From an archaeon GW2011_AR19 (GTDB lineage Archaea; Nanobdellota; Nanobdellia; Pacearchaeales; GW2011-AR1): a DNA stretch of 49,885 nucleotides. Positions within the stretch are counted from its first letter, which is position 1; each line of letters opens with the position of its first letter. The position numbers were made by a program, and so were the translations under genes. The stretch lies in contig JWKY01000001.1 of assembly GCA_000806015.1 (NCBI GenBank), positions 107,569-157,453 on the forward strand, read 5' to 3'. Shown in pieces: positions 19 to 49,009 of this stretch. The notes beneath the pieces are model-generated. The model saw nothing but the letters and a program-made list of their open reading frames with translations, did not search any database and was not told where the DNA came from.

Positions 19-249
19 TTAACTATATTTTTTAAAGCCGATATCTACAGCAATCTCTCTGAAACAGTGCCGGCAAAGGTTTAATCCATATGAGCTTATA
101 TGCGCTCCGTATCTTCCGCATCTCTCGCATTTTCGCACTGCGATTCCTATCTTTCTTTCTTTTGGTTTGCAATGTTTTAAAAATTTCCTTTTAATTTCTG
201 GTTTAGTCTCTAATTGCTTTAAAATTTTTCTCCAATCACTCGCTGTCAT
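19..249 (-). CDS. rps14: 30S ribosomal protein uS14 (S14P, zinc-binding form)
   Basis: Small-subunit ribosomal protein of the decoding-head region. The zinc ribbon is visible as CERC followed 15 residues later by CRHC. I place the start at the ATG at 249 (MTASDW) because it directly follows an SD-loop hairpin. An upstream in-frame ATG at 309 would add 20 residues (beginning MHNDTKREIL) that are only the translation of two tandem hairpin units. Next to it the minus strand shows an ATG at 18-16, probably the next spc-operon gene (uS8 expected), but only six codons lie in the window. Family assignment is secure; the start is an inference. Confidence 0.93.
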   Translation of the reverse strand: MTASDWRKILKQLETKPEIKRKFLKHCKPKERKIGIAVRKCERCGRYGAHISSYGLNLCRHCFREIAVDIGFKKYS

Positions 250-253
250 TATG

Positions 254-323
254 AAAAACTCCTGTTTTTTATCATTATGCAAAATTTCCCGTTTTGTATC
301 ATTATGCAAAACCTCCGGTTTTG
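254..323 (-). promoter_or_regulatory. Three tandem SD-loop hairpins before uS14
   Basis: Read on the minus strand: CAAAACC-GGA-GGTTTTG (323-307), CAAAA-CGGGAAA-TTTTG (296-280) and AAAAAC-AGGA-GTTTTT (269-254). Each is followed by CATAATG, so each carries its own Shine-Dalgarno-like loop and its own ATG. Only the last ATG (249) is needed to start uS14. The repeat of the whole RBS-plus-start unit is seen directly; a translational role is inferred. Confidence 0.8.
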
Positions 324-371
324 TATCCGTAGTTTACAGGGACATTGAAAAATTTTTTATTTTCCATATTT

Positions 372-917: not shown

Positions 918-1609
918 TCTATTACCATTATTTGTTTAATTAAGACATTTATTTTTTCTTTTTTGCTGTCAATTATAGCCATTTTTCTTTCTTTTTTAGA
1001 ATTAATGGTTTTAAGAGAAGGGTCAGAAACACATTTGGAAACTATTTTTTCTATCTGTCCTACTTTACCGGAATGTTTTCCTGCGAAGACAATTGCATTT
1101 GCATTTTCTTTTAGTGGGAGGCATTTTTCTATTTTTTTATCTTTAAAATTTATTAGAAGAGAATCATTTACCATGCACTTAAATTTTGGGTCTATCAAAA
1201 AATTTCGGCCATCATTTAAATTTAATTGAATTTTCTTTCCGGGCAAAATTCTCTTGTTTATAATTTTCACAATTTTTTTATTTGTTTCTTCTTCTTTAAT
1301 TTGTTTTAATTCAAATTTTCCAATTTCTGAAAACTCTAATCTGTAATATGTCTTTGAAGGGAGAATTGAGAGAGTATCAAAAAGAGTCATGCCTATTTTT
1401 TCATCTTTGAAAAATTTATTATTTATCAACAAATGTTTTTTTTGGATTGCTTTTTTTACTTCTTTCCTTGTTTGAGCTATTTTTAATAAGTCTCTTAAGA
1501 TTATTAACAAAGGAATTCCTTTTCTTGAAAGAGAGTTTGCTACGAAAACATTTCCTTTTTTTACTATCGGCCAATTTTTTGGCATATTTTGTCTTTTCAA
1601 ATGAACCAT
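914..1609 (-). CDS. rps4e: 30S ribosomal protein eS4
   Basis: Archaeal/eukaryotic-type S4e, absent from bacteria. It begins MVHLKRQNMPKNWP, the usual N-terminus of the family, has the RNA-binding S4-like segment (ISRKG-type region, residues 25-75) and a KOW-type segment near residue 180 (GKHSGKVGQIEKI). Length of 231 is typical. The start is set by a hairpin with an AGGA loop (1629-1614) followed by CATAATG. It overlaps uL5 downstream by 4 bases. Confidence 0.95.
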   Translation of the reverse strand: MVHLKRQNMPKNWPIVKKGNVFVANSLSRKGIPLLIILRDLLKIAQTRKEVKKAIQKKHLLINNKFFKDEKIGMTLFDTLSILPSKTYYRLEFSEIGKFELKQIKEEETNKKIVKIINKRILPGKKIQLNLNDGRNFLIDPKFKCMVNDSLLINFKDKKIEKCLPLKENANAIVFAGKHSGKVGQIEKIVSKCVSDPSLKTINSKKERKMAIIDSKKEKINVLIKQIMVIE

Positions 1610-1613
1610 TATG

Positions 1614-1629
1614 AAAAACTCCTGTTTTT
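1614..1629 (-). promoter_or_regulatory. SD-loop hairpin before eS4
   Basis: Minus strand AAAAAC-AGGA-GTTTTT, followed by CATAATG, whose ATG starts eS4. It is identical to the unit nearest uS14 and to one of the three before aIF1. Confidence 0.75.
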
Positions 1630-1766
1630 TATTTTGAAAAATTTATTTTTCATTTTTATTCTTTTACCCCTGCATTAGTTTGGCTTTTTCCTGAAGACGA
1701 ACTTGTCAAAAAATTTCCTTTATGCCCTTCCTTAGGGGATGTTTTTTGTTCGTCTTTAAGTTCTGT

Positions 1767-1865
1767 TTTTTCTTTTTTAACTTTTTGAACTTCTTTTTTT
1801 TGAATCTCCGGTTTTTTTGAATCAGTTATTGCCTGTTCCTTTTTTGGTTCGATTATTTTTTTTTC
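1767..1865 (-). repeat. 99-bp perfect repeat, copy A (uL24 3' end)
   Basis: This 99-base stretch is identical to 4774-4872. It starts (minus strand) with G plus nine A then TAATCGAACC. In one frame it encodes a Lys/Glu/Gln-rich peptide (IEPKKEQ...VKKEK); that frame is open to a stop at 1656-1658 but has no ATG. In the uL24 frame it supplies the last 13 codons and the TGA. The identity over 99 bases was checked base by base by eye. Confidence 0.85.
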
Positions 1866-2121
1866 CTACGATAATCTTTGAAGATTTTAGATTAACTTCA
1901 AGAATCTTTCCAACTTCTCCCTTAAACTTCCCCCTCATTATTTTAACCTTGTCTCCTTTCTTTGCTTGAAGGCTTCTCTTTTTTTGTTTTTTCCTTAAAT
2001 CTTTTGATAAATTGAGATTCACAAATTTTTTCCTTATATGCAATGGAGCATTCGCTCTGTATTTTCTTTGTTTTCTTGGCTGTTTGCTTTCTTTCCATTT
2101 AGTTGAAAAATTTTGTTTCAT
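1822..2121 (-). CDS. rpl24: 50S ribosomal protein uL24, shortened or shifted C-terminus
   Basis: Large-subunit assembly initiator. The N-terminus (FSTKWKESKQPRKQRKYRANAPLH) and the KOW motif (KGDKVKIMRGKFKGEVGKI, residues 56-74) are diagnostic of archaeal L24. Family members usually run to about 120 residues or more; this one stops at 99, just after the frame enters the 99-bp repeat at a run of nine A. With one A fewer the frame would stay open to 1656 and give a Lys/Glu-rich tail. The final RTKKGT resembles the RTKKDGT motif of relatives, so the true end is unclear. Confidence 0.88.
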   Translation of the reverse strand: MKQNFSTKWKESKQPRKQRKYRANAPLHIRKKFVNLNLSKDLRKKQKKRSLQAKKGDKVKIMRGKFKGEVGKILEVNLKSSKIIVGKKNNRTKKGTGNN

Positions 2122-2221: not shown

Positions 2222-2621
2222 AATATACCATTGAAGCGAGTTTAGCAACCTGAGGCCACCGCTCCTGCACCTCCCTTGAAATTGGTCCTTTAATTTGAGT
2301 TCCCTTGGGATTGCCTTTGTCATCTTTAAGAATTGCCACTGCATTGTCGCTAAATGCAATTCTCTCTCCATTTAATCTCCTGAATGGTTTTTTTTGTCTT
2401 ATGATTACAGCATCAAAAACTTTTCCCTTCATATCGGGAAGACCTACACGCACGCTGACTTTAACCCAATCTGCAATTTTTCCGCAAACTTGCCTCTTTT
2501 TTTTCGCTTTGCTTCTTTTGACTGCGACTAATCTAACGATTTTTGCTCCGCTATTATCAGATGCAATCAAATTTGCTCCTAAGTTTAATCCTGCTGTTGT
2601 TTTTGCTGATATTGCTTTCAT
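2220..2621 (-). CDS. rpl14: 50S ribosomal protein uL14
   Basis: Interface protein of the large subunit. It matches L14 throughout: ANLIASDNSGAKIVRLVAV, then VRVGLPDMKGKVFDAVIIRQKKPFRRLNGERIAF, and the C-terminal GTQIKGPISREVQERWPQVAKLA. Length of 133 is normal for archaea. The leader contains a weak hairpin with AGGAA (around 2645-2662). Downstream is the 59-bp repeat and then uL24. Confidence 0.96.
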   Translation of the reverse strand: MKAISAKTTAGLNLGANLIASDNSGAKIVRLVAVKRSKAKKKRQVCGKIADWVKVSVRVGLPDMKGKVFDAVIIRQKKPFRRLNGERIAFSDNAVAILKDDKGNPKGTQIKGPISREVQERWPQVAKLASMVY

Positions 2622-2669
2622 TTGATTGTCCTCAAGCGAATGAATGAAAATTTCCTGTTTGCTTTCATT

Positions 2670-3049: not shown

Positions 3050-3343
3050 TTATATGGTTTCTTTTTCAAATCCATGTTTTACTAAAATCTCTTTTACTTT
3101 TTTTTGATGATCTCCCTGAAGTTCAATTATATTATTTTTGCTGGTGCCTCCGCAAGCCAGCCCGTTTTTCAAAATTTTTGCAATCTTTTTAATATTAACT
3201 CCGCTATCAAATCCGGAAACAAGGGTAACAATTTTTCCATATCTCTTCTTATCTGTTGCTATAGTTATATTCTGCAAACTTTTTACCATTTGTTCGCATA
3301 CACAAGCTTGCTGCGGTAACCCGCATTTTGGACATATTTCCAT
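3050..3343 (-). CDS. eif1: Translation initiation factor aIF1 (SUI1 family)
   Basis: Promotes start-codon selection fidelity on the small subunit. The SUI1 core is visible (RYGKIVTLVSGFDSGVNIKKIAKILKNGLACGGTSKN and IELQGDH). The N-terminus has a CPKCGLP...CVC cluster, seen in many archaeal members. Its position between uL29 and uS17 is the usual archaeal one. The start ATG at 3343 follows two exact 28-bp hairpin-plus-ATG units and one variant. Confidence 0.94.
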   Translation of the reverse strand: MEICPKCGLPQQACVCEQMVKSLQNITIATDKKRYGKIVTLVSGFDSGVNIKKIAKILKNGLACGGTSKNNIIELQGDHQKKVKEILVKHGFEKETI

Positions 3344-3347
3344 TATG

Positions 3348-3419
3348 AAAATTCTCCTGAATTTTTATCATTATGAAAATTCTCCTGAATTTTTATCATT
3401 ATGAAAAACTCCTGTTTTT
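3348..3419 (-). promoter_or_regulatory. Three tandem SD-loop hairpin units before aIF1
   Basis: Minus strand: AAAAAC-AGGA-GTTTTT (3419-3404), then AAAATTC-AGGA-GAATTTT twice (3393-3376 and 3365-3348), at an exact 28-base period, each followed by CATAATG. The two 7-bp stems are perfect. Only the final ATG (3343) starts aIF1; the earlier ATGs open short frames that overlap the next unit. Confidence 0.85.
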
Positions 3420-3432
3420 TATTTTGAAAAAT

Positions 3433-3630
3433 TTATTTTTCATTTTTATTTTTTTTAATCTCCCCTTTTTTTGAAGAGATAATTGTATTTATTCTTGAAA
3501 TCATTTTTTTAATTTGTCTTGCTTTCCCGCCTGTTTTTGAATAATTTGCTTTTATTAATTCAATTTTTAATTCTTTAGTTTTTTTTTCTCTTTCAATATC
3601 CGTTAATTTTTTTAGTTCTTTAAATTTCAT
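3433..3630 (-). CDS. rpl29: 50S ribosomal protein uL29
   Basis: Small two-helix large-subunit protein near the exit tunnel. It begins MKFKELKKLTDIEREKKTKEL, a typical L29 N-terminus, and has the second helix ARQIKKMISRINTIIS. At 65 residues it is normal. It lies between uS3 and aIF1, the conserved archaeal order. Confidence 0.9.
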   Translation of the reverse strand: MKFKELKKLTDIEREKKTKELKIELIKANYSKTGGKARQIKKMISRINTIISSKKGEIKKNKNEK

Positions 3631-3641
3631 ATTTCATTTTT

Positions 3642-4277
3642 TTATTTAAATTGTTTTACCCTCTCTTTAAGTTTTTTTAATAACTCTTCACTTATGGTGA
3701 TTTCGTCTTTCAAAATAGCATGAGGTGACAGAATAGCTACTTTTATTCCGACAGTTCCCGGTCTTGTTTCAGCTCTTGCCTGCGCTCTATCAACAACCTT
3801 TGCGCTGTCTCCTACTTTTTTTAACTGACCTTGAGCGAAACGCCAAGTTTTTGCTCTTGCGCCGGGAAGTTTTCCACTTAATCTTATTTCTGTTCCACGC
3901 GCTCCTGCCTTCATTATTCTTTCTAAAATTTTGTAAGTAATACTCTTGAATTTTATTGGTCCAAGTCTTTCCAAACTCTGAGCAATTTCATCTGTCATTA
4001 TTTGCGCATCAAATTCCGGCTGAGTAATTTCAACTATTTCGATATGAGGATTTTCTAATTTAAATTGTTTTTTTAAAATATTAGTTAATTCTAAGATTTT
4101 TTCTCCGCCTCTGCCAATTAATAATCCTGGTTTGTGCGTTGAAATGATTATCTTTTCTCCAACAGGAGTATACTCTGTTTTTACTTTGCTAAGTTTGCCT
4201 TTACCGACGAATTTTTTAATGTATTCTTTTATGGCAAATTCATCTTTTTTTAATTTTACAGTTTTTCTTTCTTCCAT
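3642..4277 (-). CDS. rps3: 30S ribosomal protein uS3
   Basis: mRNA-entry-channel protein. The KH domain is clear (LLIGRGGEKILELTNIL, residues 53-69), as is the C-terminal half (GARGTEIRLSGKLPGARAKTWRFAQG, then DRAQARAETRPGTVGIKVAIL). Length is 211. The start is set by a hairpin at 4300-4282 with TGGAG in its loop. Confidence 0.96.
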   Translation of the reverse strand: MEERKTVKLKKDEFAIKEYIKKFVGKGKLSKVKTEYTPVGEKIIISTHKPGLLIGRGGEKILELTNILKKQFKLENPHIEIVEITQPEFDAQIMTDEIAQSLERLGPIKFKSITYKILERIMKAGARGTEIRLSGKLPGARAKTWRFAQGQLKKVGDSAKVVDRAQARAETRPGTVGIKVAILSPHAILKDEITISEELLKKLKERVKQFK

Positions 4278-4281
4278 TATG

Positions 4282-4300
4282 CAAAATCCTCCAGATTTTG
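4282..4300 (-). promoter_or_regulatory. SD-loop hairpin before uS3
   Basis: Minus strand CAAAATC-TGGAG-GATTTTG, a perfect 7-bp stem with a Shine-Dalgarno-like loop, followed by CATAATG whose ATG starts uS3. Confidence 0.75.
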
Positions 4301-4368
4301 TATCTTGAAAAATTTATTTTTCATTTTATTTTCTGTTGAAATGTATGAAAACTTTTTGTTTTCTTTCA

Positions 4369-4875
4369 TTATTTTTTCTTCTCCTTTATTTTAATTTCAC
4401 GCGCAACTATTTTGATATGTGTTCTTTTTCTTTGCCATTTTCCAAATCTGGCCCGGGGCTTAGAACCTCTATTTGCAAAAGCTTCAGTGATAATTGGTTT
4501 TTCTAATCCATTTGCTGCGGCATTTGCAGATAAACTTTTTAATAATTTTATAAAATATCCTGTTGCTTTTTCGGGATATTTTCCTGATCCGGACGCAAAA
4601 CCTTTAGCTGATTTTTTATGCCCGTATCCTCCCCTCATGGGAATTGCTTTTTTATGGGAAAGAACTTGCTCTAAATCTTTAATTGCCGTTTCAATTGATT
4701 TAGTCTTAATGAATTTGCAAATATCGCTTGAATATTTAGTTGATACTGGAACATTCTTGCTATTTAAAACTGCTTTTTCTTTTTTAACTTTTTGAACTTC
4801 TTTTTTTTGAATCTCCGGTTTTTTTGAATCAGTTATTGCCTGTTCCTTTTTTGGTTCGATTATTTTTTTTTCAAT
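4369..4875 (-). CDS. rpl22: 50S ribosomal protein uL22, no canonical start codon
   Basis: Large-subunit exit-tunnel protein. The whole L22 core is present in one frame: [59 protein letters not shown], and [20 protein letters not shown]. The first ATG in that frame (4638) would delete the N-terminal half, so it cannot be the start. Upstream the frame stays open through a Lys/Glu-rich lead to a TAA at 4878-4876, with no ATG, GTG or TTG. Possible routes are a -1 frameshift from uS19 at the A9 run, transcript slippage, an AUU/AUA start, or an assembly error. The end coordinate is the limit of the open frame. Confidence 0.85.
4774..4872 (-). repeat. 99-bp perfect repeat, copy B (uS19/uL22 junction)
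   Basis: Identical to 1767-1865. Here it begins at the last codons of uS19 (TTG then nine A then TAA) and encodes the Lys/Glu-rich N-terminal lead of uL22. Since that lead is in frame with L22 and ends smoothly in its core, this is the likelier original copy. Confidence 0.85.
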
Positions 4876-5957: not shown

Positions 5958-6407
5958 TTATAAAATTGTTAACAAATCTTCTATTGATTTAATTGTATAA
6001 TAAGGATTTCCAGTTTCTTCAGTTGGAAGTTCATTAGAATATTCTCCTTTTTCAATCCAGGCAGTCTTGCATCCTAATTTATTTCCTATTTGAATTCCTC
6101 TTAAAGTTCTATCATCAACAACTAAAGTCTCTTCTGGTTTAACTTTTAATTTTCTCATGCATTTTGTATAATGTTCTGGAGTTTTATCAATCTCTGCAAT
6201 AATAAAATTAAAATAATGTTTTATCCCGTTAATTTGGTTTAACCTTTCTTCAACAGAATTTGAAACCGCTTTTGAAATTACTGCTAATTTATATTTTGGC
6301 TTTAATTCCTGCAAAACATTTTCTGAATAGGGAAACAATCCTTTATTTTTTTCATATAAAGTTCCTGCCCAATCAAAAATTATTGCTTTTATTTTTTTAT
6401 TTTTCAT
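5958..6407 (-). CDS. HAD-like hydrolase inside the ribosomal operon
   Basis: HAD-superfamily protein of unknown substrate. Motif I is DWAGTL (residues 12-17), motif II is the VISKA region, and motif III/IV are the Lys and the VVDDR near residue 97. The second motif-I Asp is replaced by Ala. This DWAGT form is known in phosphonoacetaldehyde hydrolases and is unlike the DxDGT of ordinary HAD phosphatases. It lies between uL23 and uL2 with 1-8 base spacing, so it is co-expressed with ribosomal proteins. At 149 residues it has little room for a cap domain. Function unknown. Confidence 0.75.
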   Translation of the reverse strand: MKNKKIKAIIFDWAGTLYEKNKGLFPYSENVLQELKPKYKLAVISKAVSNSVEERLNQINGIKHYFNFIIAEIDKTPEHYTKCMRKLKVKPEETLVVDDRTLRGIQIGNKLGCKTAWIEKGEYSNELPTEETGNPYYTIKSIEDLLTIL

Positions 6408-14434: not shown

Positions 14435-15152
14435 AAATCTCCATGTTGAAATTGAGGGAAAAGAAATTATCAAAGGAATTAATTTAAAATTTGAAAAAGG
14501 AAAGATTTATGCTTTAATGGGTCCAAATGGTTCTGGAAAATCAACTCTTGCGAATGTAATAATGGGAAATCCAGAATACAAGATAACAAAGGGAAAAATT
14601 TTTTTAAATGGAAAAGATATCACAAATTTAAATCCAGATCAAAAAGCAAAAAATGGAATTTTCTTAAGTTTTCAAAATCCAAGTGAAATTGAAGGGGTTA
14701 CAATTTCAAATTTTTTAAGAATGGCTTTAAATAATTCGAAAAATAAAAAAATTTCTGTCCCGGATTTTCACAAATTATTGAAAGAAAAATTAAAACTTTT
14801 AAAAATGCCTGAAAATTTTTCTGAAAGATATTTAAATCAAGGTTTTTCAGGAGGAGAAAAAAAGAAATCTGAAATCTTGCAATTAAATATCTTAAATCCA
14901 AAAGTTGCAATTTTAGATGAAACAGATTCCGGGCTTGACATTGATGCCTTAAAAGTAATTGCTTCAGGAGTAAAAAATTTAATGAATAAAGAAAAAATAA
15001 TCGTTATTATCACTCATTATAAAAGGATTTTAAAATATCTCAAACCGGATAAACTTTCTGTTATGGTGGATGGAAAAATAGTTCTTGAGGGAGGGCATAA
15101 ATTAGTTGACCAGTTAGAAAAAAAAGGATATGGGTGGATTGAAAAAAATTAA
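14421..15152 (+). CDS. sufC: Fe-S assembly ATPase SufC
   Basis: ABC-type ATPase partner of SufB. Walker A is GPNGSGKSTL (residues 33-42), the signature is FSGGEKKKSEILQ (about 143-155) and Walker B is VAILDETDSGLDIDAL (about 162-177), the DETDSGLD form typical of SufC. The D-loop and switch His (VIITHYKRIL) follow. Length 243 is normal. It is the last gene of the operon. Confidence 0.95.
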   Translation: MLEIKNLHVEIEGKEIIKGINLKFEKGKIYALMGPNGSGKSTLANVIMGNPEYKITKGKIFLNGKDITNLNPDQKAKNGIFLSFQNPSEIEGVTISNFLRMALNNSKNKKISVPDFHKLLKEKLKLLKMPENFSERYLNQGFSGGEKKKSEILQLNILNPKVAILDETDSGLDIDALKVIASGVKNLMNKEKIIVIITHYKRILKYLKPDKLSVMVDGKIVLEGGHKLVDQLEKKGYGWIEKN

Positions 15153-15232
15153 AATGTTAAAATTCTCAAAATTTTTAAACATAATAATTCTATTATAAAA
15201 GTTTTTATATTCCATCAAATTAATTTTATCAT

Positions 15233-15316
15233 GCGGAATTGCCGGAGTGGTCAAACGGGCGAGATTAAGGCTCTCGTGGCTTAGTGCCTGCAAAGGTTCG
15301 AACCCTTTATTCCGCA
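15233..15316 (+). tRNA. tRNA-Leu (anticodon AAG)
   Basis: Class II tRNA of 84 bases. Acceptor GCGGAAT pairs with ATTCCGC, discriminator A, T arm AAAGG-TTCGAAC-CCTTT, and a long variable arm. The anticodon stem CGAGA/TCTCG has five pairs around TTAAGGC, giving AAG. The alternative register that would give TAA breaks one of five pairs. CCA is not encoded. A34 is unusual in archaea. Confidence 0.85.
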
Positions 15317-16873: not shown

Positions 16874-17290
16874 ATGAAAAATTTGTTATATGCTTTAGGA
16901 ATTGCAGGGTTGGGTTTAGTTCCGATAAACTCATATTCTCAAGAAACTTCTGGATATGTCAAAGAAGAGATAATTGAAAAAAATTTTAGAAAATTAGATG
17001 AAGGAGCTAAAAATTTAGCACTAACACTTGTTTATACAAATCCGACTTCTATAAAATTTGATTCACTTGACCAAAAAACAAAAAATAGATTATGGAATAT
17101 TTTAGCAAATCAATATGAATTTGAAAAAGAACAAGATGAAAATAAATTAAAAGAATTTGAAACAACTAAAAATAAATATTCTGAACTTCAAAAATCAAAT
17201 GAAAATTTAGTTTCTAATAATAAAAAATGCGAATTAGAAAATAAAGACTTAAAAGAGAAATATGAACCTGTAAGTGAAAAAAGGAAATGA
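16874..17290 (+). CDS. Secreted coiled-coil protein, unknown
   Basis: I do not recognise a family. The N-terminus is a signal peptide (MKNLLYALGIAGLGLVPINSYSQ). Residues from about 75 are a Lys/Glu/Asn-rich coiled coil (EFEKEQDENKLKEFETTKNK and onward). It likely sits outside the membrane. It stands alone between uS9 and a convergent minus-strand pair. A TATA-like TTTAAATAC lies about 30 bases upstream. Confidence 0.65.
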   Translation: MKNLLYALGIAGLGLVPINSYSQETSGYVKEEIIEKNFRKLDEGAKNLALTLVYTNPTSIKFDSLDQKTKNRLWNILANQYEFEKEQDENKLKEFETTKNKYSELQKSNENLVSNNKKCELENKDLKEKYEPVSEKRK

Positions 17291-17317
17291 AAACTCTTTT
17301 TAATAAAATAATTTTAA

Positions 17318-17722
17318 TTACTTTCTCAATCTCTCCAATTTATCCTGAACTTTATTAAATAAAATTGATGAAATAATCGGCTTGTGATTTCCGTTGTGAA
17401 TCTGGCCATTGAATTTTATTTTTCCGATATATGCAAAATTTTTAAGAATCTTTTTTAATCCATTTACAGAAAAATTTCTTTTTTTTGCGAGTTTTGCCAA
17501 ACCGATGTCTTCCTGTAAAAATTCTTCAAAAATCTCTTCAACTTCTCTGAAATTTAGCGCGGGAATTAGTTTTTTGTTTTCCCATTTATAACCAAATGGC
17601 GTTCTAGACATATGATTTCCCTGAGAAGCTTTTTTGATCATCCCAAGTTTCTGCTGTTCTCCTCTTTCAAGTTTAATTTCTTTTTTGCAGTGCGGACAAA
17701 TCATTTCCACAAATTCCCCCAT
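17318..17722 (-). CDS. Stand-alone Recombinase-domain protein with zinc ribbon
   Basis: The body matches the Recombinase domain of large serine recombinases (RTPFGYKWENKKLIPALNFREVEEIFEEF, AKKRNFSVNGLKKILKNFAYIGKIKF, NGNHKPIISSILFNKVQDKLERL). The catalytic resolvase domain is absent. Instead there is a short N-terminal CPHCKKE. It may be a domesticated DNA-binding remnant rather than an active integrase. The ATG at 17722 overlaps the upstream HAD gene by 22 bases; Met6 (17707) would reduce that to 7. Confidence 0.75.
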   Translation of the reverse strand: MGEFVEMICPHCKKEIKLERGEQQKLGMIKKASQGNHMSRTPFGYKWENKKLIPALNFREVEEIFEEFLQEDIGLAKLAKKRNFSVNGLKKILKNFAYIGKIKFNGQIHNGNHKPIISSILFNKVQDKLERLRK

Positions 17723-20894: not shown

Positions 20895-20919
20895 TTTTGC
20901 ACTTAGGTTAGCTTAGTTA
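20895..20919 (-). repeat. 25-bp intergenic repeat, copy 2
   Basis: Identical to copy 1. Its last three bases (20917-20919) form the stop codon of the gene at 20917-21144, so the repeat meets the coding end exactly. Confidence 0.85.
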
Positions 20920-21144
20920 TTTTAAAATTCTTGAACTTATTAAAATTATTAAAACTCCAATAAATGTAACCACTATCGCAATTGCAAGGGTGGAAGTTAT
21001 CGGGTTTAATTCTAAAAATCTTGATAAAGCATCCCCCGTTAATTTAATTACAAAATCTTTCCAGACAAATGCAATAATAAACCCTATGGCGGCGGCTAAA
21101 GCTAATCTAATTTGCCTCCTAAATTCTTTTCTAAAACTAACCAT
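20917..21144 (-). CDS. Small two-helix membrane protein, DUF5654-like
   Basis: 75 residues with two hydrophobic segments (about 14-35, LALAAAIGFIIAFVWKDFVI, and 50-71, TLAIAIVVTFIGVLIILIS) and a basic N-terminus. The AFVWKDFV motif between them resembles archaeal DUF5654 proteins. It is preceded by two SD-loop hairpins and by a TATA-like ATATATAAAAAGG. Function unknown. Confidence 0.65.
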   Translation of the reverse strand: MVSFRKEFRRQIRLALAAAIGFIIAFVWKDFVIKLTGDALSRFLELNPITSTLAIAIVVTFIGVLIILISSRILK

Positions 21145-21151
21145 CTTTATG

Positions 21152-21195
21152 AAAAACTTCCTGTTTTTTATCGCTATGCAAAATTTCCTGTTTTG
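21152..21195 (-). promoter_or_regulatory. Two SD-loop hairpins before the DUF5654-like gene
   Basis: Minus strand CAAAA-CAGGAAA-TTTTG (21195-21179) and AAAAAC-AGGAA-GTTTTT (21168-21152), each followed by CATA. The first, with its upstream flank, is repeated on the plus strand at 41555-41590. Confidence 0.7.
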
Positions 21196-22477: not shown

Positions 22478-23350
22478 TTAAATCTCCCTTAGAGTAATTA
22501 TTGTAGATAAGGAGGCAATTTGTTTAATAGATTGAGCAATATTTAGCCTTATATTCTTATTATTTAACTTTGTTTTATCTATTGGAATCCCTTTATTTAT
22601 CAGCCTTGCGACGTAATCCCGTATAGAACTCTCTGTAAGTTTTAATTTTTCAGCGAGGATCTTATAATCAGAATAACCAATTTCCTCATCAAATTGGTAA
22701 ATTGTTAAAAAAACCAGCCATTCTTGTTCTGTGAGTTTTTTAAATTTCTTATAAATTTCCTTTTTTAAATCACCAAGAGATTTAATCATTTCAGCCGCGT
22801 TTTCTATACTATTTTCTACCTGCCTGTCTGCTGGGAAGTTATCTTCTATGTTATTTCTTGATTGTCTGTCTGTCTGTTGGTCTGTCTGTCTGTCTGCTGG
22901 AACCCCTCCATTTCCTGTGGAAATATTCAAATTTTGTGTGTTTAAAGGTTTAAAAAGAACAGTATCTGTTGGAAAATTTTCTTGATCTACTGGATTTATT
23001 TGCATATGTGTCTGATTTATTTGATTAAACATTTCCTGTATATTCTCGCAAATTTGATTCATTACCTCCCTGTTTTCTTTTAATTCATTTTTTAAATCAT
23101 TTAATTCATTTTTCAAAGAATCCATATCTTGTTTTACTTTATTAAAGGCTTCTTTAATTTTGTTTCCTTCAAATTTTGTCAAAAAGTTTCCTTTATGCAA
23201 AATTTCCTGTTTTGTGTCGTTATGCCCTTCCTTAGGGTACTCTTGGGGATATTTCTGAGAATATGTTTTTTTTTCCTCTTTAACTCGACCACGCTTGGGT
23301 GAGTTTGTCAAAAAACTTCTTGTTTTTTGTTCCTCTTTTACATAGTCCAT
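22478..23350 (-). CDS. Coiled-coil/winged-helix protein with repeat-built N-terminus and tetranucleotide linker
   Basis: 290 residues, family not recognised. Residues 1-60 are the translation of several palindromic repeats (for example HNDTKQEILH from an SD-loop hairpin). Residues 62-110 are a coiled coil. Residues 145-180 are a Gln/Asp/Arg linker (PADRQTDQQTDRQ) encoded by CTGT tandem repeats. Residues 200-265 form a winged helix (LTEQEWLVFLTIYQFDEEIGYSDYKILAEKLKLTESSIRDYVARLI). The layout matches the gene at 21637. Likely a DNA-binding regulator. Confidence 0.7.
   Translation of the reverse strand: MDYVKEEQKTRSFLTNSPKRGRVKEEKKTYSQKYPQEYPKEGHNDTKQEILHKGNFLTKFEGNKIKEAFNKVKQDMDSLKNELNDLKNELKENREVMNQICENIQEMFNQINQTHMQINPVDQENFPTDTVLFKPLNTQNLNISTGNGGVPADRQTDQQTDRQSRNNIEDNFPADRQVENSIENAAEMIKSLGDLKKEIYKKFKKLTEQEWLVFLTIYQFDEEIGYSDYKILAEKLKLTESSIRDYVARLINKGIPIDKTKLNNKNIRLNIAQSIKQIASLSTIITLREI
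22864..22898 (-). repeat. CTGT tetranucleotide tract inside the coding sequence
   Basis: Plus strand GTCTGTCTGTCTGTTGG then TCTGTCTGTCTGTCTGCTGG. A 4-base period in a coding frame means any slippage event shifts the frame. A related CTGCCTGTCTGCTGG lies at 22819-22834. Confidence 0.8.
23198..23237 (-). repeat. Two SD-loop hairpins inside the 22478 coding sequence
   Basis: Minus strand CCCT-AAGGA-AGGG (23237-23225) followed by CATAA, then CAAAA-CAGGAAA-TTTTG (23214-23198) followed by CATAA. The first also occurs after uL24 (1737-1725), where the second unit is absent. Confidence 0.75.
23283..23329 (-). repeat. Composite palindromic element inside the 22478 coding sequence
   Basis: Hairpin CAAAAAAC-AAGAA-GTTTTTTG (23329-23309) then ACTCACCC-AAGCGT-GGTCGAGT (23304-23283). 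Same order as in sufB (11090-11135), in a different frame. Confidence 0.75.
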
Positions 23351-27635: not shown

Positions 27636-27837
27636 AAACAGGAAGTTTTCATTCGTTTTCCGAGGACGTCAAACGAAACAGGAAGTTTTTTCATTACCCA
27701 TTTTTATAGGAAATAAAAATGAATAAAGCAAAACAGGAAATTTTTCATTATTCATTTAACAGGAAATAAAATGAATAAAGCAAATTCAGGAAAAATTTGT
27801 ATTATCCATTTTTTAAAACTATGGAATATAAAAAATG
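27636..27837 (+). promoter_or_regulatory. String of SD-loop hairpins before polD small subunit
   Basis: AAAC-AGGAA-GTTT (27636-27648), GAAAC-AGGAA-GTTTT (27675-27689), a 9-bp perfect stem CATTTTTAT around AGGAA (27699-27721), AAAA-CAGGAAA-TTTT (27730-27744), TTCATTT around AACAGGAAATA (27751-27775), CAAATT-CAGGAAA-AATTTG (27781-27799), and a 9-bp stem CATTTTTTA (27807-27837) whose 3' arm contains the start ATG. All loops carry AGGAA or TGGAA. Confidence 0.8.
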
Positions 27838-29460
27838 AATAAAGAAATATTAAAATTTTGTGTAGAAAAAGGTTTTTTAGTAGATAACGATCTTCTTGAA
27901 TTATTCAATGAAACTTCAGATATTGAATCAATTAAATTAATTATTGAAAAAGTTAAGACCTATACCCGCCAGAATATTTTAACCAGAAATCTTTTTGAAA
28001 AAAATAAAGAACAGGTTAATAAATTTTTCCTGGATTTGCCTGAAGAAAAAAAGATGGGACTGGAAAGACTAAGAATAAAATTGGGCTTAAGTATTGAGAT
28101 ATCTAAAGAAAGCGATTCTGAAATATTTTTAAAAACTGAATCTGATGAAAATCCAAATCTCAAAAAAACCAAGAGCAATTTCGAGAATAATATTAATGTT
28201 CTTTCTTATACGCCTAAAAATTATGAAAAACTCGAAGTTAAAAATTTTGTAAACTATTTTAGAAAAAGATTTGTTCAGATTAGTGAAATCCTGCAAAGTC
28301 GTTTTGAATTAGATAATTTAATTTCAATAGATAAAATTTCAGGAAATAGGCAGGGGGTTTCTATTATCGGAATAGTATACAGCAAGAGCGTTACAAAAAA
28401 TAAAAACATATTCTTAGAAGTTGAAGATTTAACCGGCAGGATAAAAATTTTAGTTAATAAATCAAAAGAGGATCTTTATAAAGTTGCGGAAGAAATTTGT
28501 TTGGATTCTGTTTTAGGATTTAGATGTTCGGGAAATAAGGAGTGCCTTTTTGCAAACGGGATTTTTTTTCCTGACGCAATAATTCCTGAAAGAAAAAAAT
28601 CTCCGGTTGAAGAATATGCTCTTTTTATCGGCGATTTGCATTTTGGAAGCAAGCTTTTTTTGAAAAAGAGCTTTTTGAAATTTCTTGATTATCTTAACGG
28701 CGATCTTGATGATTTCGATAAAAATGAAATTAAAAAAATAAAATATTTATTTATTGTCGGGGATCTTGTTACCGGCGTAGGAAATTATCCCGGACAGGAG
28801 AGTGATTTAGAAATCACGGATTTGGAAGAGCAATTTCTAGATTTAGCTAAATTATTGGAAAAAATTCCAAAGCATATTAAAATTATTATTTCTCCGGGAA
28901 ACCATGATGGAGTTAGAATTATGGAGCCCCAGCCCGTTTTTGATATAAAATATGCCTGGCCATTGTTCCAACTAAAAAATCTTATTATCACTGAAAATCC
29001 ATGCACATTAAATCTTGGCGCGCAAGAAAATTTTTTTGGTTTCGACGTTTTAACTTATCATGGTTTTTCTTATCCATATTATGCAGGAAATATTCCTGAA
29101 TTAATTAAAAAAAAGGCAATGAACTGCCCCGAAGAAATTGTAAAATATTTATTAAAGCACAGACATCTTGCTCCTACACACGGTTCAACACAATATTACC
29201 CTCATAAAGAAGATTCGCTGACAATTAAAAATGTCCCGGATATTTTTGTTTCAGGACACACGCATAAATGCGGAATTTCATATTACAATAATGTTTTGAT
29301 AATTTCTGTTTCATGCTGGGAAGCTATGACAAGGTATCAGGAAAAATTCGGAAATGAACCAGATCATTGTAAGGTGCCTATGTTGAATTTAAAAACCCGT
29401 TCTATTAAGATTTTGGATTTTGAAGAGAAACAGGAAGTTTCTCATTCATTCGCTAAATAG
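27835..29460 (+). CDS. polB: DNA polymerase D small subunit DP1 (3'-5' exonuclease)
   Basis: Proofreading subunit of the archaeal replicase PolD. An N-terminal helical part and an OB-fold (about 170-250) precede a calcineurin-like phosphoesterase domain with FIGDLHFGSK (263-272), VGDLVTGVG (near 308), SPGNHDG (near 353), TYHGFSY (near 406) and SGHTHKCG (near 472). All metal-binding motifs are intact. 541 residues. The last codons (KQEVSHSFAK) contain another SD-loop hairpin (29427-29441). Confidence 0.95.
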   Translation: MNKEILKFCVEKGFLVDNDLLELFNETSDIESIKLIIEKVKTYTRQNILTRNLFEKNKEQVNKFFLDLPEEKKMGLERLRIKLGLSIEISKESDSEIFLKTESDENPNLKKTKSNFENNINVLSYTPKNYEKLEVKNFVNYFRKRFVQISEILQSRFELDNLISIDKISGNRQGVSIIGIVYSKSVTKNKNIFLEVEDLTGRIKILVNKSKEDLYKVAEEICLDSVLGFRCSGNKECLFANGIFFPDAIIPERKKSPVEEYALFIGDLHFGSKLFLKKSFLKFLDYLNGDLDDFDKNEIKKIKYLFIVGDLVTGVGNYPGQESDLEITDLEEQFLDLAKLLEKIPKHIKIIISPGNHDGVRIMEPQPVFDIKYAWPLFQLKNLIITENPCTLNLGAQENFFGFDVLTYHGFSYPYYAGNIPELIKKKAMNCPEEIVKYLLKHRHLAPTHGSTQYYPHKEDSLTIKNVPDIFVSGHTHKCGISYYNNVLIISVSCWEAMTRYQEKFGNEPDHCKVPMLNLKTRSIKILDFEEKQEVSHSFAK

Positions 29461-36841: not shown

Positions 36842-38731
36842 ATGCAAAAAAGGGGTTTGATAATTTTTAGTTTAATCTTTTTAATAAGTTTTGTTCTTCT
36901 TGCAAGTGTTTTTGCTCAAGATACAACTAATACAAATGTTGTTGAAAATAATTTACCTGTAGAAGTTCCTGAAAATACTTTGGCGTCTTCTGTAGGATAT
37001 GTTAGTCCAGAGGGGGGTGAAGTTGATTTAACTGAAGACGAGGAAGTTAATGTTTTAGTTAAAGAGGCAGAAGGATTTACTGAAGAATTAAGTGTTAAAG
37101 CTGGAATAACTCCTGATAGTGGAGCATATTTTATAGAAGATAAAATCCTTGCGCCTTTTAGAGATGATTCAGTTAATAGAGAGAGAAAAATTGCTGAAAT
37201 GCAAGAGATGATGCAAAAAGGAGATATAGAAGCTGCAAGAAAATCTTTTGAAAGATATCAAAGATATGCAGATGATTTTGAGAGAGAAGTTTCTCCTGAA
37301 GAAAGAGCAGAAGCATTAAGAAGTTCTCAAGCAATTAGGGGAGTTGCAATTAGAGAGATTGCGCAAAATATGCCTGCTGGAGAAAAAGATGAATTTGTCA
37401 GAGAGATAGTTTTAGGAGAAAAAGATATTGAAACTGCTGCAGAAATTGCTTCTAAAATATCTGAATTATGCTCGCAATTATCAAAATTAGATCCATCACA
37501 ATATGAAAAAGTTTGCAGAATAGAAGGAGATGCTCCTGACTGGAGAAAAAAACTTGATAAAGATTTAACAGAAGAGCAAAGAGCAGAGGCTTTAAAATTT
37601 GGAGAGATAATGTCGCAGTGTTTTGAAACTGCAGGACAGAATTGTAAATGCGAAGAAATTTCATATCCTGATTTTGCTGAAGCATGCTCTATTGCAGCGC
37701 CGTTAGCAACTGCATGTGAGATTGAAAATAATGAAGATGCTTGTGAACAATTAGATGATTTAGAAATGCCTGAACTTCCAGATTATTTGCAGGATATTAT
37801 GGATGAACTTGAAGGCGGAATGAGTGAAAGTAAATATGGGATGTTTCTTCCTCCTGAATGTGAAGATGCGGGAGCTAAATCACCAAAAGATTGCGCAAAA
37901 ATTATGATAAACACGCATGCTCCCGAAGAATGCAGACCAGCGCTTCTTGCTGCGAATGTTCAAAATGAAAGACAGGGAAGAGAAATTTGCGAAAAAATTA
38001 TGTTTGAACAAAATGCTCCTCCAGAATGTGTTGAGGCAGGAATTACAAATTCCGGAGAGTGCGGAAAATATATGTTTAAAGTAAATGCTCCGCAAGAATG
38101 CATTGACGCTGGAATGGATGGAAGTTCTAAAACTGATCCTATGGCTTGCAGAAAATTCATGGAAAGTCAATTTAGTGGAGAGGGACAAGGAGGATGCGCG
38201 CCTGGAACAGTTTGCGTTCCTGGAAGTCAGTGGGCACCTGGAACCGGACCAAACATGAGAAATTCAGGAGGAGATTGTAAAAGTATTTCGGACCCTATGA
38301 AAAGATTAGAATGTTATGAAGGAGCTACTCAGTATGTTCAGGGATATAGAAATGATTTTCAGGAAAATTTTAACAAAATAGATAGGCCGCAATTTGATGT
38401 AAATCGTCCCCAAGAATTTGAGCAAAGATATGAAGAAAGATTTAGACAAGATTATCAACAACCTTATCAGCAAGGGGATTTTCAAGGCGGACAATTTCAA
38501 CCTCCTCAGCAATTTCAACAACCGCAAGATTATCAGCAACAATATCCGCAACCAGGAACATATCAACAACCTCCTCAAGATTATCAGCAACCAACAACTA
38601 CAACAACAGAACCAGCAACAACGACTACTGATTCAGGAACTTCAAGCAGTGATGGAGGAAGTGAAGGAGGAAGCATTACAGGCGGAGTTATTTCTAATAG
38701 TGGGTTTTTAAGATATTGGTTTTTTGGATGA
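36842..38731 (+). CDS. Large secreted Cys-repeat, Gln-rich surface protein
   Basis: 629 residues. Signal peptide MQKRGLIIFSLIFLISFVLLASVFA. Middle region is helical and acidic. Residues about 335-445 hold four repeats of about 30 residues with paired Cys (PPECEDAG...DCAK, APEECRPA...EICEK, APPECVEAG...ECGK, APQECIDAG...ACRK). Then a Gln/Pro/Tyr-rich stretch (YQQPYQQGDFQ) and a Thr/Ser tract, ending SITGGVISNSGFLRYWFFG, a short hydrophobic tail. Likely a cell-surface structural protein; TGGVI-type ends recur in DPANN surface proteins. Confidence 0.7.
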   Translation: MQKRGLIIFSLIFLISFVLLASVFAQDTTNTNVVENNLPVEVPENTLASSVGYVSPEGGEVDLTEDEEVNVLVKEAEGFTEELSVKAGITPDSGAYFIEDKILAPFRDDSVNRERKIAEMQEMMQKGDIEAARKSFERYQRYADDFEREVSPEERAEALRSSQAIRGVAIREIAQNMPAGEKDEFVREIVLGEKDIETAAEIASKISELCSQLSKLDPSQYEKVCRIEGDAPDWRKKLDKDLTEEQRAEALKFGEIMSQCFETAGQNCKCEEISYPDFAEACSIAAPLATACEIENNEDACEQLDDLEMPELPDYLQDIMDELEGGMSESKYGMFLPPECEDAGAKSPKDCAKIMINTHAPEECRPALLAANVQNERQGREICEKIMFEQNAPPECVEAGITNSGECGKYMFKVNAPQECIDAGMDGSSKTDPMACRKFMESQFSGEGQGGCAPGTVCVPGSQWAPGTGPNMRNSGGDCKSISDPMKRLECYEGATQYVQGYRNDFQENFNKIDRPQFDVNRPQEFEQRYEERFRQDYQQPYQQGDFQGGQFQPPQQFQQPQDYQQQYPQPGTYQQPPQDYQQPTTTTTEPATTTTDSGTSSSDGGSEGGSITGGVISNSGFLRYWFFG

Positions 38732-41569: not shown

Positions 41570-41586
41570 CAAAACAGGAAATTTTG
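41570..41586 (+). repeat. SD-loop hairpin, plus-strand copy
   Basis: CAAAA-CAGGAAA-TTTTG followed by CATTA. With its upstream flank (TTTTCATAGATA) it matches the minus-strand copy near 21195. No ATG follows directly. Confidence 0.7.
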
Positions 41587-45771: not shown

Positions 45772-45860
45772 ATAATTGAAAATGGAAATGAAATTTAGGA
45801 AAAATTTCAACACAATTATATTTCAGGAAAAAAATATAATTGAAAGGAGGTATAAATAAA

Positions 45861-48964: not shown

Positions 48965-49009
48965 CAAATTCAGGAAAAATTTGTATTCATTCGCTAAATA
49001 GGAAATTTA
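48965..49009 (+). promoter_or_regulatory. Two SD-loop hairpins before the gene at 49014
   Basis: CAAATT-CAGGAAA-AATTTG (48965-48983) and TAAAT-AGGAA-ATTTA (48995-49009), 5 bases before the ATG. The first equals the unit at 27781; the second equals the unit at 29454. Confidence 0.75.

Follow-up and report, generated by a model that had tools for sequence, protein, structure and literature searches.

Shine-Dalgarno-loop hairpins of a Pacearchaeota-type archaeon as the probable half of a spreading translation-start module

A family of short hairpins carrying a Shine-Dalgarno (SD) motif in the loop lies at gene starts in the archaeon GW2011_AR19; this family is real, and chance is excluded as its source. 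The hairpins belong to a module of recurrent structure, position and reading frame, with covarying stems, which is present or absent at the same sites in different species. It is probably a spreading start module, a leader minicistron that would act by translational coupling, with the SD of the gene in the hairpin loop.

Sequence Material

The window analyzed here is a stretch of 49,885 nucleotides (G000:C1:107569-157453) of the source genome, GW2011_AR19 (G000, Pacearchaeota-type), whose assembly comprises 678 kb in 20 contigs with an estimated completeness of 74.5%. Hairpin statistics rest on 273 kb of this genome (40%), taken as stretches. The congeners G001 and G002 were used for alignment of the ribosomal protein operon, where the SD-loop finding is located and where uS14, eS4, aIF1, uS3 and uL24 were confirmed by Pfam. 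Outside G000, genes were identified by eye unless Pfam had been run. A cmscan search of the window against Rfam at gathering thresholds returned two tRNAs only and no curated leader RNA family.

Several features of the operon itself were observed along the way. A HAD-family hydrolase gene (HAD_2, 5.5e-16) lies within it at 5958-6407 of the window (minus strand), and neither congener has one there. An 84-bp stretch is identical at 1767-1850 and 4774-4857 (minus strand) and encodes a K/E-rich tail near uL24 and near 4.8 kb, common to two ribosomal-operon genes. In the region of about 1855-1870 (minus strand), the uL24 ORF as called ends early, and in the congeners the conserved uL24 tail carries on past an A-run in a different frame; this may be a homopolymer frameshift, an assembly error or slippage.

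Results

The Hairpin Unit

Hairpins of the form ATA-stem-loop-stem'-CATA were observed 38 times in the 273 kb of G000, versus about 5 expected and 1-8 in null sequences, and 32 of them had GGA in the loop, versus 0 in simulations. The proposed placing of the SD in a hairpin loop is supported. In the window, the pattern CATTATGN{3,9}TCC gave 8 matches for 0.45 expected. A de novo census of the 273 kb yielded 1052 hairpins, among which AGGA, AGGAA and CAGGAAA loops were enriched (16, 15 and 7, versus 0.8, 0.8 and 0 expected) and CATA was the most enriched 3' flank. An origin by chance in AT-rich DNA would draw on the commonness of A/T-rich stems and on the lack of an overall excess of hairpins with a stem of at least 6 (1052 vs. 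about 1125), but it is already refuted by the null sequences, by the GGA loops and by a reversed-pattern control that stayed at zero in 200 genomes.

The stems covary: 26 hairpin types gave 145 pairs, whereas 5000 re-dealings of the arms averaged 115 and never exceeded 140, and the inner stem pairs numbered 25, versus at most 21 in re-dealt arms. The compensatory changes described in the sequence-only reading are thus supported. RNA folds were modest, from -1.9 to -6.0 kcal/mol for the start-proximal types, and the commonest type in G000, CAAAACAGGAAATTTTG, does not fold stably as RNA (0 kcal/mol). Directly before genes in G000, most loops carry GGAG; the AGGAAA loop is the type found elsewhere.

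The three tandem units announced before uS14 (254-323, minus strand) were all found (Table 1). Their order on the minus strand is GATA-CAAAACCGGAGGTTTTG-CATAATG, GATA-CAAAACGGGAAATTTTG-CATAATG and GATA-AAAAACAGGAGTTTTT-CATAATG, the last ATG being the uS14 start, and both G001 and G002 lack the insert. The stems were said to be perfect, which does not hold for the middle unit, where a C/A mismatch occurs. With about 20 SD-loop hairpins of all kinds, the window contains the more than 15 sites claimed for it; only 8 of its units are followed by CATAATG, which had been attributed to each. Hairpins with other stems and flanks are present as well, for example before PolD DP1, the 49014 gene and the 45840 ORF. 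The first two of these genes had been listed with the family, and they do have SD-loop hairpins, but of a second subfamily with other flanks. The view of the units as dispersed start signals is supported, except that the copies at 41570-41586 and, inside a 290-aa ORF, at 23198-23214 do not stand before a start.

Table 1. Hairpin units, leader minicistrons and associated genes in the window.
Feature	Position	Strand	Details
uS14 gene, behind three tandem units	19..249	-	ATG 249-247; Pfam Ribosomal_S14 9.2e-10, 19-246
SD-loop unit 3, AAAAAC-AGGA-GTTTTT	254..269	-	CATAATG holds uS14 start
SD-loop unit 2, CAAAACGGGAAATTTTG	280..296	-	imperfect stem; then CATAATG
SD-loop unit 1, CAAAACC-GGA-GGTTTTG	307..323	-	fold -6.0 kcal/mol; then CATAATG
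uS14 leader minicistron 1, MENKKFFNVPVNYGYKTGGFA-stop	302..367	-	TAA overlaps next ATG
eS4 leader minicistron, MKNKFFKIKNRSFS-stop	1609..1653	-	hairpin 1614-1629; TAATG with eS4; empty in G001, G002
CCTAAGGAAGGGCATAA unit in uL24 C-terminal tail	1720..1736	-	in open frame
uL14 leader, second subfamily, MKANRKFSFIRLRTIK-stop	2618..2668	-	TGA overlaps uL14 start (ATGA)
Second aIF1 leader, MIKIQENFHNDKNSGEFS-stop	3343..3399	-	ends at aIF1 TAATG
Hairpins of second aIF1 leader	3376-3393, 3348-3365 (AAAATTC-AGGA-GAATTTT)	-	
aIF1 leader minicistron, MKNKFFKIKNRSFS-stop	3399..3443	-	unit hairpin 3404-3419
uS3 leader minicistron, MKNKFFKIQNLEDFA-stop	4277..4324	-	TAATG with uS3; Pfam S3
uS3 leader unit hairpin, CAAAATC-TGGAG-GATTTTG	4282-4300	-	
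Two units before DUF5654 gene (20917-21144)	21152..21195	-	7 nt before gene; CAAAACAGGAAATTTTG 21179-21195, AAAAACAGGAAGTTTTT 21152-21168
CCCTAAGGAAGGG unit and CAAAACAGGAAATTTTG unit	23220-23236, 23198-23214	-	in frame in 290-aa ORF 22478-23350
Second-subfamily hairpins upstream of PolD DP1 (27835-29460)	27699..27799	+	27699-27721 CATTTTTAT-AGGAA-ATAAAAATG; 27729-27745; 27781-27799
CAAAACAGGAAATTTTG unit away from any start	41570..41586	+	next ORF start 41722
Two SD-loop hairpins at 45840 ORF	45789..45842	+	unrelated stems: TGAAATTT/AAATTTCA; 11-bp CAATTATATTT/AAATATAATTG
Second-subfamily hairpins before 49014 gene	48965..49009	+	48965-48983; 48995-49009 TAAAT-AGGAA-ATTTA

The Leader Minicistron

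Upstream of the hairpin lies a mini-ORF, typically MKNKFF..FA-stop or MTENKFS..FA-stop, whose TAA overlaps the start of the gene (TAATG). For example, ATG ACA GAA AAT AAA TTT TCA GCA CAA ATA CAA AAC AGG AGT TTT GCA TAATG reads MTENKFSAQIQNRSFA-stop, and another leader peptide of module copies is MKNKFFSIQNRSFA-stop. When any upstream ATG was accepted, the stop/start overlap of translational coupling was found at TAATG in 48 of 53 copies, against 4 of 212 genes without units, all from G000 (p 4e-42). When only the nearest upstream ATG was considered, 27 of 33 copies outside G000 opened an ORF ending exactly at TAATG (p 1.4e-8 vs. 1/3), as did 16 of 20 further copies. Within G000, a coupled leader accompanies 10 of the 13 gene-proximal units, and 3 are without one. 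Part of this conservation of the frame could reflect the common descent of the copies.

Modules range from 44 to 131 nt and their hairpins from 16 to 19 nt, yet the leader frame is kept, as the remainder of the leader adjusts to hairpin lengths of 16, 17, 18 and 19 (residues 1, 0, 2 and 1 mod 3). Leaders bearing inserted unrelated hairpins remain open to TAATG, up to 43 codons. The internal part of the peptide is variable (IQNRSFA, YKTGDFA, DTKSGDFA), and the selected property would therefore be the ORF with its stop/start overlap, not the peptide. In aligned copies, AGGA(G) lies inside the leader ORF, 9-11 nt before the ATG of the gene, so that the leader contains a second SD at working distance from the start, as in a bicistronic-design-like cassette. 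The leader ATG itself is preceded by an SD-like motif in 22 of 35 leaders, the other 13 having no obvious one; among these SD-less leaders, several from outside G000 are preceded, at a distance of about 29-32 nt, by a TATA-like box. Copies in G176 keep the leader and the SD with an enlarged loop. The second subfamily is similar, as the uL14 leader of G000 ends with an ATGA overlap; this leader is present in G001 and absent in G002. G000 yielded no 16S and G002 only part of one, and the anti-SD was therefore looked up in relatives, 10 of 20 of which had the expected 16S 3' end, TGGATCACCTCCT.

Distribution and Insertion History

The pattern AGGAN{0,4}TTTTGCATAATG was found in 15 of 200 genomes of the order, at 63 sites in 8 genera of one family, and its reversed control gave no match in all 200 genomes. 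The family thus extends beyond the window. A related pattern, ATACAAAN{1,4}GGAN{0,4}TTTTGCATA, occurs in 10 of 181 genomes of the family. In all 31 copies listed outside G000, CATA stands directly before the ATG of an ORF, with no gap. These ORFs are long and mostly housekeeping, and include, by eye, uS8, uS19, uS3, uL13, SerRS, GyrA, exosome and proteasome proteins.

Alignment of the operon with G001 and G002 showed that the modules are insertions in G000. At the eS4 start, G001 reads AAAAAAATAATGG and G002 AGTGAAAAAATAATGG, where G000 has the module ATGAAAAATAAATTTTTCAAAATAAAAAACAGGAGTTTTTCATA before ATGG. Empty sites also occur in congeners at aIF1 (vs. G001) and at a ribosomal gene at C1:106 kb. 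The second aIF1 leader is absent in G001, and G002 has a different mosaic there; both congeners have their own, different hairpin mosaics at other sites. Elsewhere in the order, G183 has a 50-nt module before uS19 where G181, of the same genus, reads ...AAGTAAAATGG; G182 also has a module at this gene. A small module, MGFSFRKRKATM-stop, precedes uL24 in G000 but uS8 in G002, which suggests movement. The empty sites in sister species indicate that the modules of G000 are recent dispersed insertions. It had been proposed that a lack of the units at these sites in related genomes would reduce the pattern to chance. The two congeners do lack them there, but this reflects recent insertion rather than chance, because the family is found at other genes in 14 further genomes. 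The CCTAAGGAAGGGCATAA unit is restricted to the genus (3 of 3 congeners, 0 of 53 others).

Copies in Coding Sequence

Not every copy is a start module, because ORFs of G000 also contain, in frame and away from starts (C1:20846, 36868-36938, 130761-130804), the CAAAACAGGAAATTTTG (AGGAAA) type and the related CCCTAAGGAAGGG type, whose flanks are again ATA/CATAA. The host ORFs include a circularly-permuted-type GTPase and a KH protein (domains assigned by eye). In G002, uL24 has a clean 21-bp in-frame insertion of such a unit, and the sisters are empty. In-frame insertion inside coding genes, by which Rickettsia palindromic elements are recognized, is therefore found here too. The coding copies examined of both types all lie in sense orientation, though antisense frames are also open. 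This strict sense orientation of the copies, including the coding ones, hints at an RNA-level step in their spread. Units may also be nested, as in CCCTAA[TGATACAAAACAGGAAATTTTGCATAA]AGGGC, and the coding and nested copies look like small palindromic repeat elements.

Spliced or bypassed inserts are unlikely, because the coding copies examined (the 27-bp type and the 21-bp insertion in uL24 of G002) keep open frames; the 26- and 28-bp types were seen solely outside coding sequence. For a REP element, a Y1 (RAYT) transposase would be expected, and PF01797 was absent in all three genomes of the genus (assemblies 74-93% complete). A MITE would be marked by terminal inverted repeats together with a target-site duplication. 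Duplication of the gene start was striking in two cases (G002:C135, G000:C7) but overall not above control, with 3 of 25 reaching 14/18 identity (control 3%). AATG may be duplicated at insertion, and A-runs blur the junction.

Further repeats were observed. In the stretch G000:C7:20001-40000, a unit of about 49 bp, AAATTTTTATACTAAAAATTCATAATCACAAATCGTTGTTTGTTC, is repeated in tandem at positions 15050-15260 and 17180-17360, on opposite strands about 2 kb apart; it has ATA/CATAA flanks and a covarying hairpin whose loop is TAC. The repeat CCCCAAGGGATGACTCTGGTGAGCC, read SPRDDSGEP, is apparently coding, with 7 exact 14-mer copies in 273 kb (stretches L065, L069, L060 and others). Among the other hairpin repeats are CTCGCCCAAGCGTGGTCGAG tails (KTGNFLTNSPKRGR). 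In uL5, the N-terminal extension reads GACTGGGACTGAATCCCGTC in G001 and GACTGAGATAAAATCTCGTC in G002, a compensatory stem change at an orthologous site.

Discussion

We propose a portable translation-start module, the leader minicistron, of which the unit makes up the 3' half. The module runs from an ATG through an A/T-rich hairpin, which typically reads MKNKFF or MTENKFS, and a short linker to ATA, followed by the second hairpin with its AGGA(G) loop and by CATA, which is fused to the ATG of the gene with the leader TAA overlapping the start. Copies have reached the start codons of numerous unrelated genes. At the known empty sites (eS4, aIF1, uS19), the module stands between the former SD and the gene, so that this SD would now serve the leader. 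A ribosome would read the leader of 8-43 codons, open the hairpin, stop at TAATG and restart on the overlapping ATG, aided by the loop SD about 9-11 nt upstream. We infer leader translation, coupling and the role of the loop SD as the working SD from the arrangement of the modules. The hairpin may either expose the SD or weakly hide it up to the moment of leader translation. Where copies stand in tandem, as before uS14, they would be serial modules; their earlier description as duplicated modules is supported.

The sequence-only reading had the hairpin alone present the SD. Such a signal, used for ordinary initiation with an incidental leader ORF, would account for the SD in the loop, the covarying stems and a spacing to the ATG that suits an SD, and yet we regard it as quite improbable. 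The hairpin is half of a module, and what is conserved in that module is a leader ORF that runs to TAATG, which favors coupled translation over the hairpin by itself; the leader frame is conserved despite length changes, the G176 copies retain leader and SD around an enlarged loop, and the folds are weak (0 to -6 kcal/mol). Short leader ORFs and two hairpins before genes would also fit a regulatory leader peptide or attenuator, in which stalling on the leader controls the gene. However, the peptide is not conserved (two internal frames, many kinds of inserts) and the downstream genes have no common pathway, and we consider this reading very improbable.

Purely selfish palindromic mini-elements, like those of Rickettsia, would insert wherever tolerated and confer nothing, and the sense orientation, the SD and the open frame would mark the survivors of selection on the host gene. 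Near-identical, dispersed and lineage-specific copies, empty sites in sisters, nested insertions, the in-frame copies within the GTPase, the KH protein and uL24, and the genus restriction of CCTAAGGAAGGGCATAA speak for it. We nevertheless consider it unlikely, as unit-pattern copies outside G000 sit exactly on the ATG instead of being scattered and as the TAATG frame is so widely kept. Somewhat less doubtful, although still tentative, is a mobile element with a translation start site as its cargo and means of survival: it would insert at the start codons of essential genes and take over their initiation through a leader minicistron (own SD, TAATG), and hence would not be easily lost. Selfish spread is compatible with the start-module reading, since a module could survive by restoring a start, and an element that serves harmlessly as a start module could thereby spread. 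Gain of a module may be either adaptive or that of a tolerated parasite.

Synthetic bicistronic design (BCD) cassettes have an SD2/TAATG layout. Like the modules, BCD cassettes have a short leader ORF that holds a second SD, with a stop/start overlap before the gene of interest. Unlike them, the modules form a natural, dispersed family of homologous repeats over 8 archaeal genera, their SD lies in a covarying hairpin loop, and an extra first hairpin is present at the leader start. For synthetic two-cistron cassettes, first cistrons that encode leader peptides have been reported, some of them leaderless (PMC5995908, PMC10367133). Termination-reinitiation at overlapping genes was demonstrated in Haloferax and E. 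coli (PMC6728339), and hairpin unfolding and ribosome re-use are both accepted models of reinitiation (PMC12548453). The modules resemble such coupled genes in their stop/start overlap (-1 nt TAATG; ATGA in the second subfamily) and in the SD inside the upstream ORF, but here the upstream "gene" is a portable minicistron before unrelated genes rather than a native neighbor.

Yeast mitochondrial GC clusters and fungal mitochondrial double-hairpin elements are mobile, nested hairpins of tens of bp; in contrast, the present modules are prokaryotic and coupled to translation starts. With the Rickettsia palindromic elements and similar small repeats (MITEs are reviewed in PMC10969869), the units share their palindromic and dispersed nature, their several families and their in-frame coding insertions, but they measure 21-28 bp versus about 150 bp, and are strand-biased, SD-bearing and located mainly at start codons. 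No such element was found in the open-access literature searched, for Pacearchaeota or elsewhere. Translational coupling and palindromic repeats are both known already; a dispersed natural family of replaceable start modules was not found elsewhere in that literature. The modules combine these two known kinds, and it is a real possibility that they are a kind of their own.

Gene-start annotation in these genomes is often wrong, because the longest ORF extends into the module; for example, uS14 is listed from 309 and starts at 249. The modules make testable how translation is initiated in DPANN archaea, how general minicistron coupling is there, and by what route hairpins this short spread when no transposase is seen. 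If the proposed reading is true, nature would have its own version of an engineered expression cassette, and the start sites of such core genes as those for ribosomal proteins, aIF1, the proteasome, SerRS and gyrase would have been replaced again and again by a repeat family.
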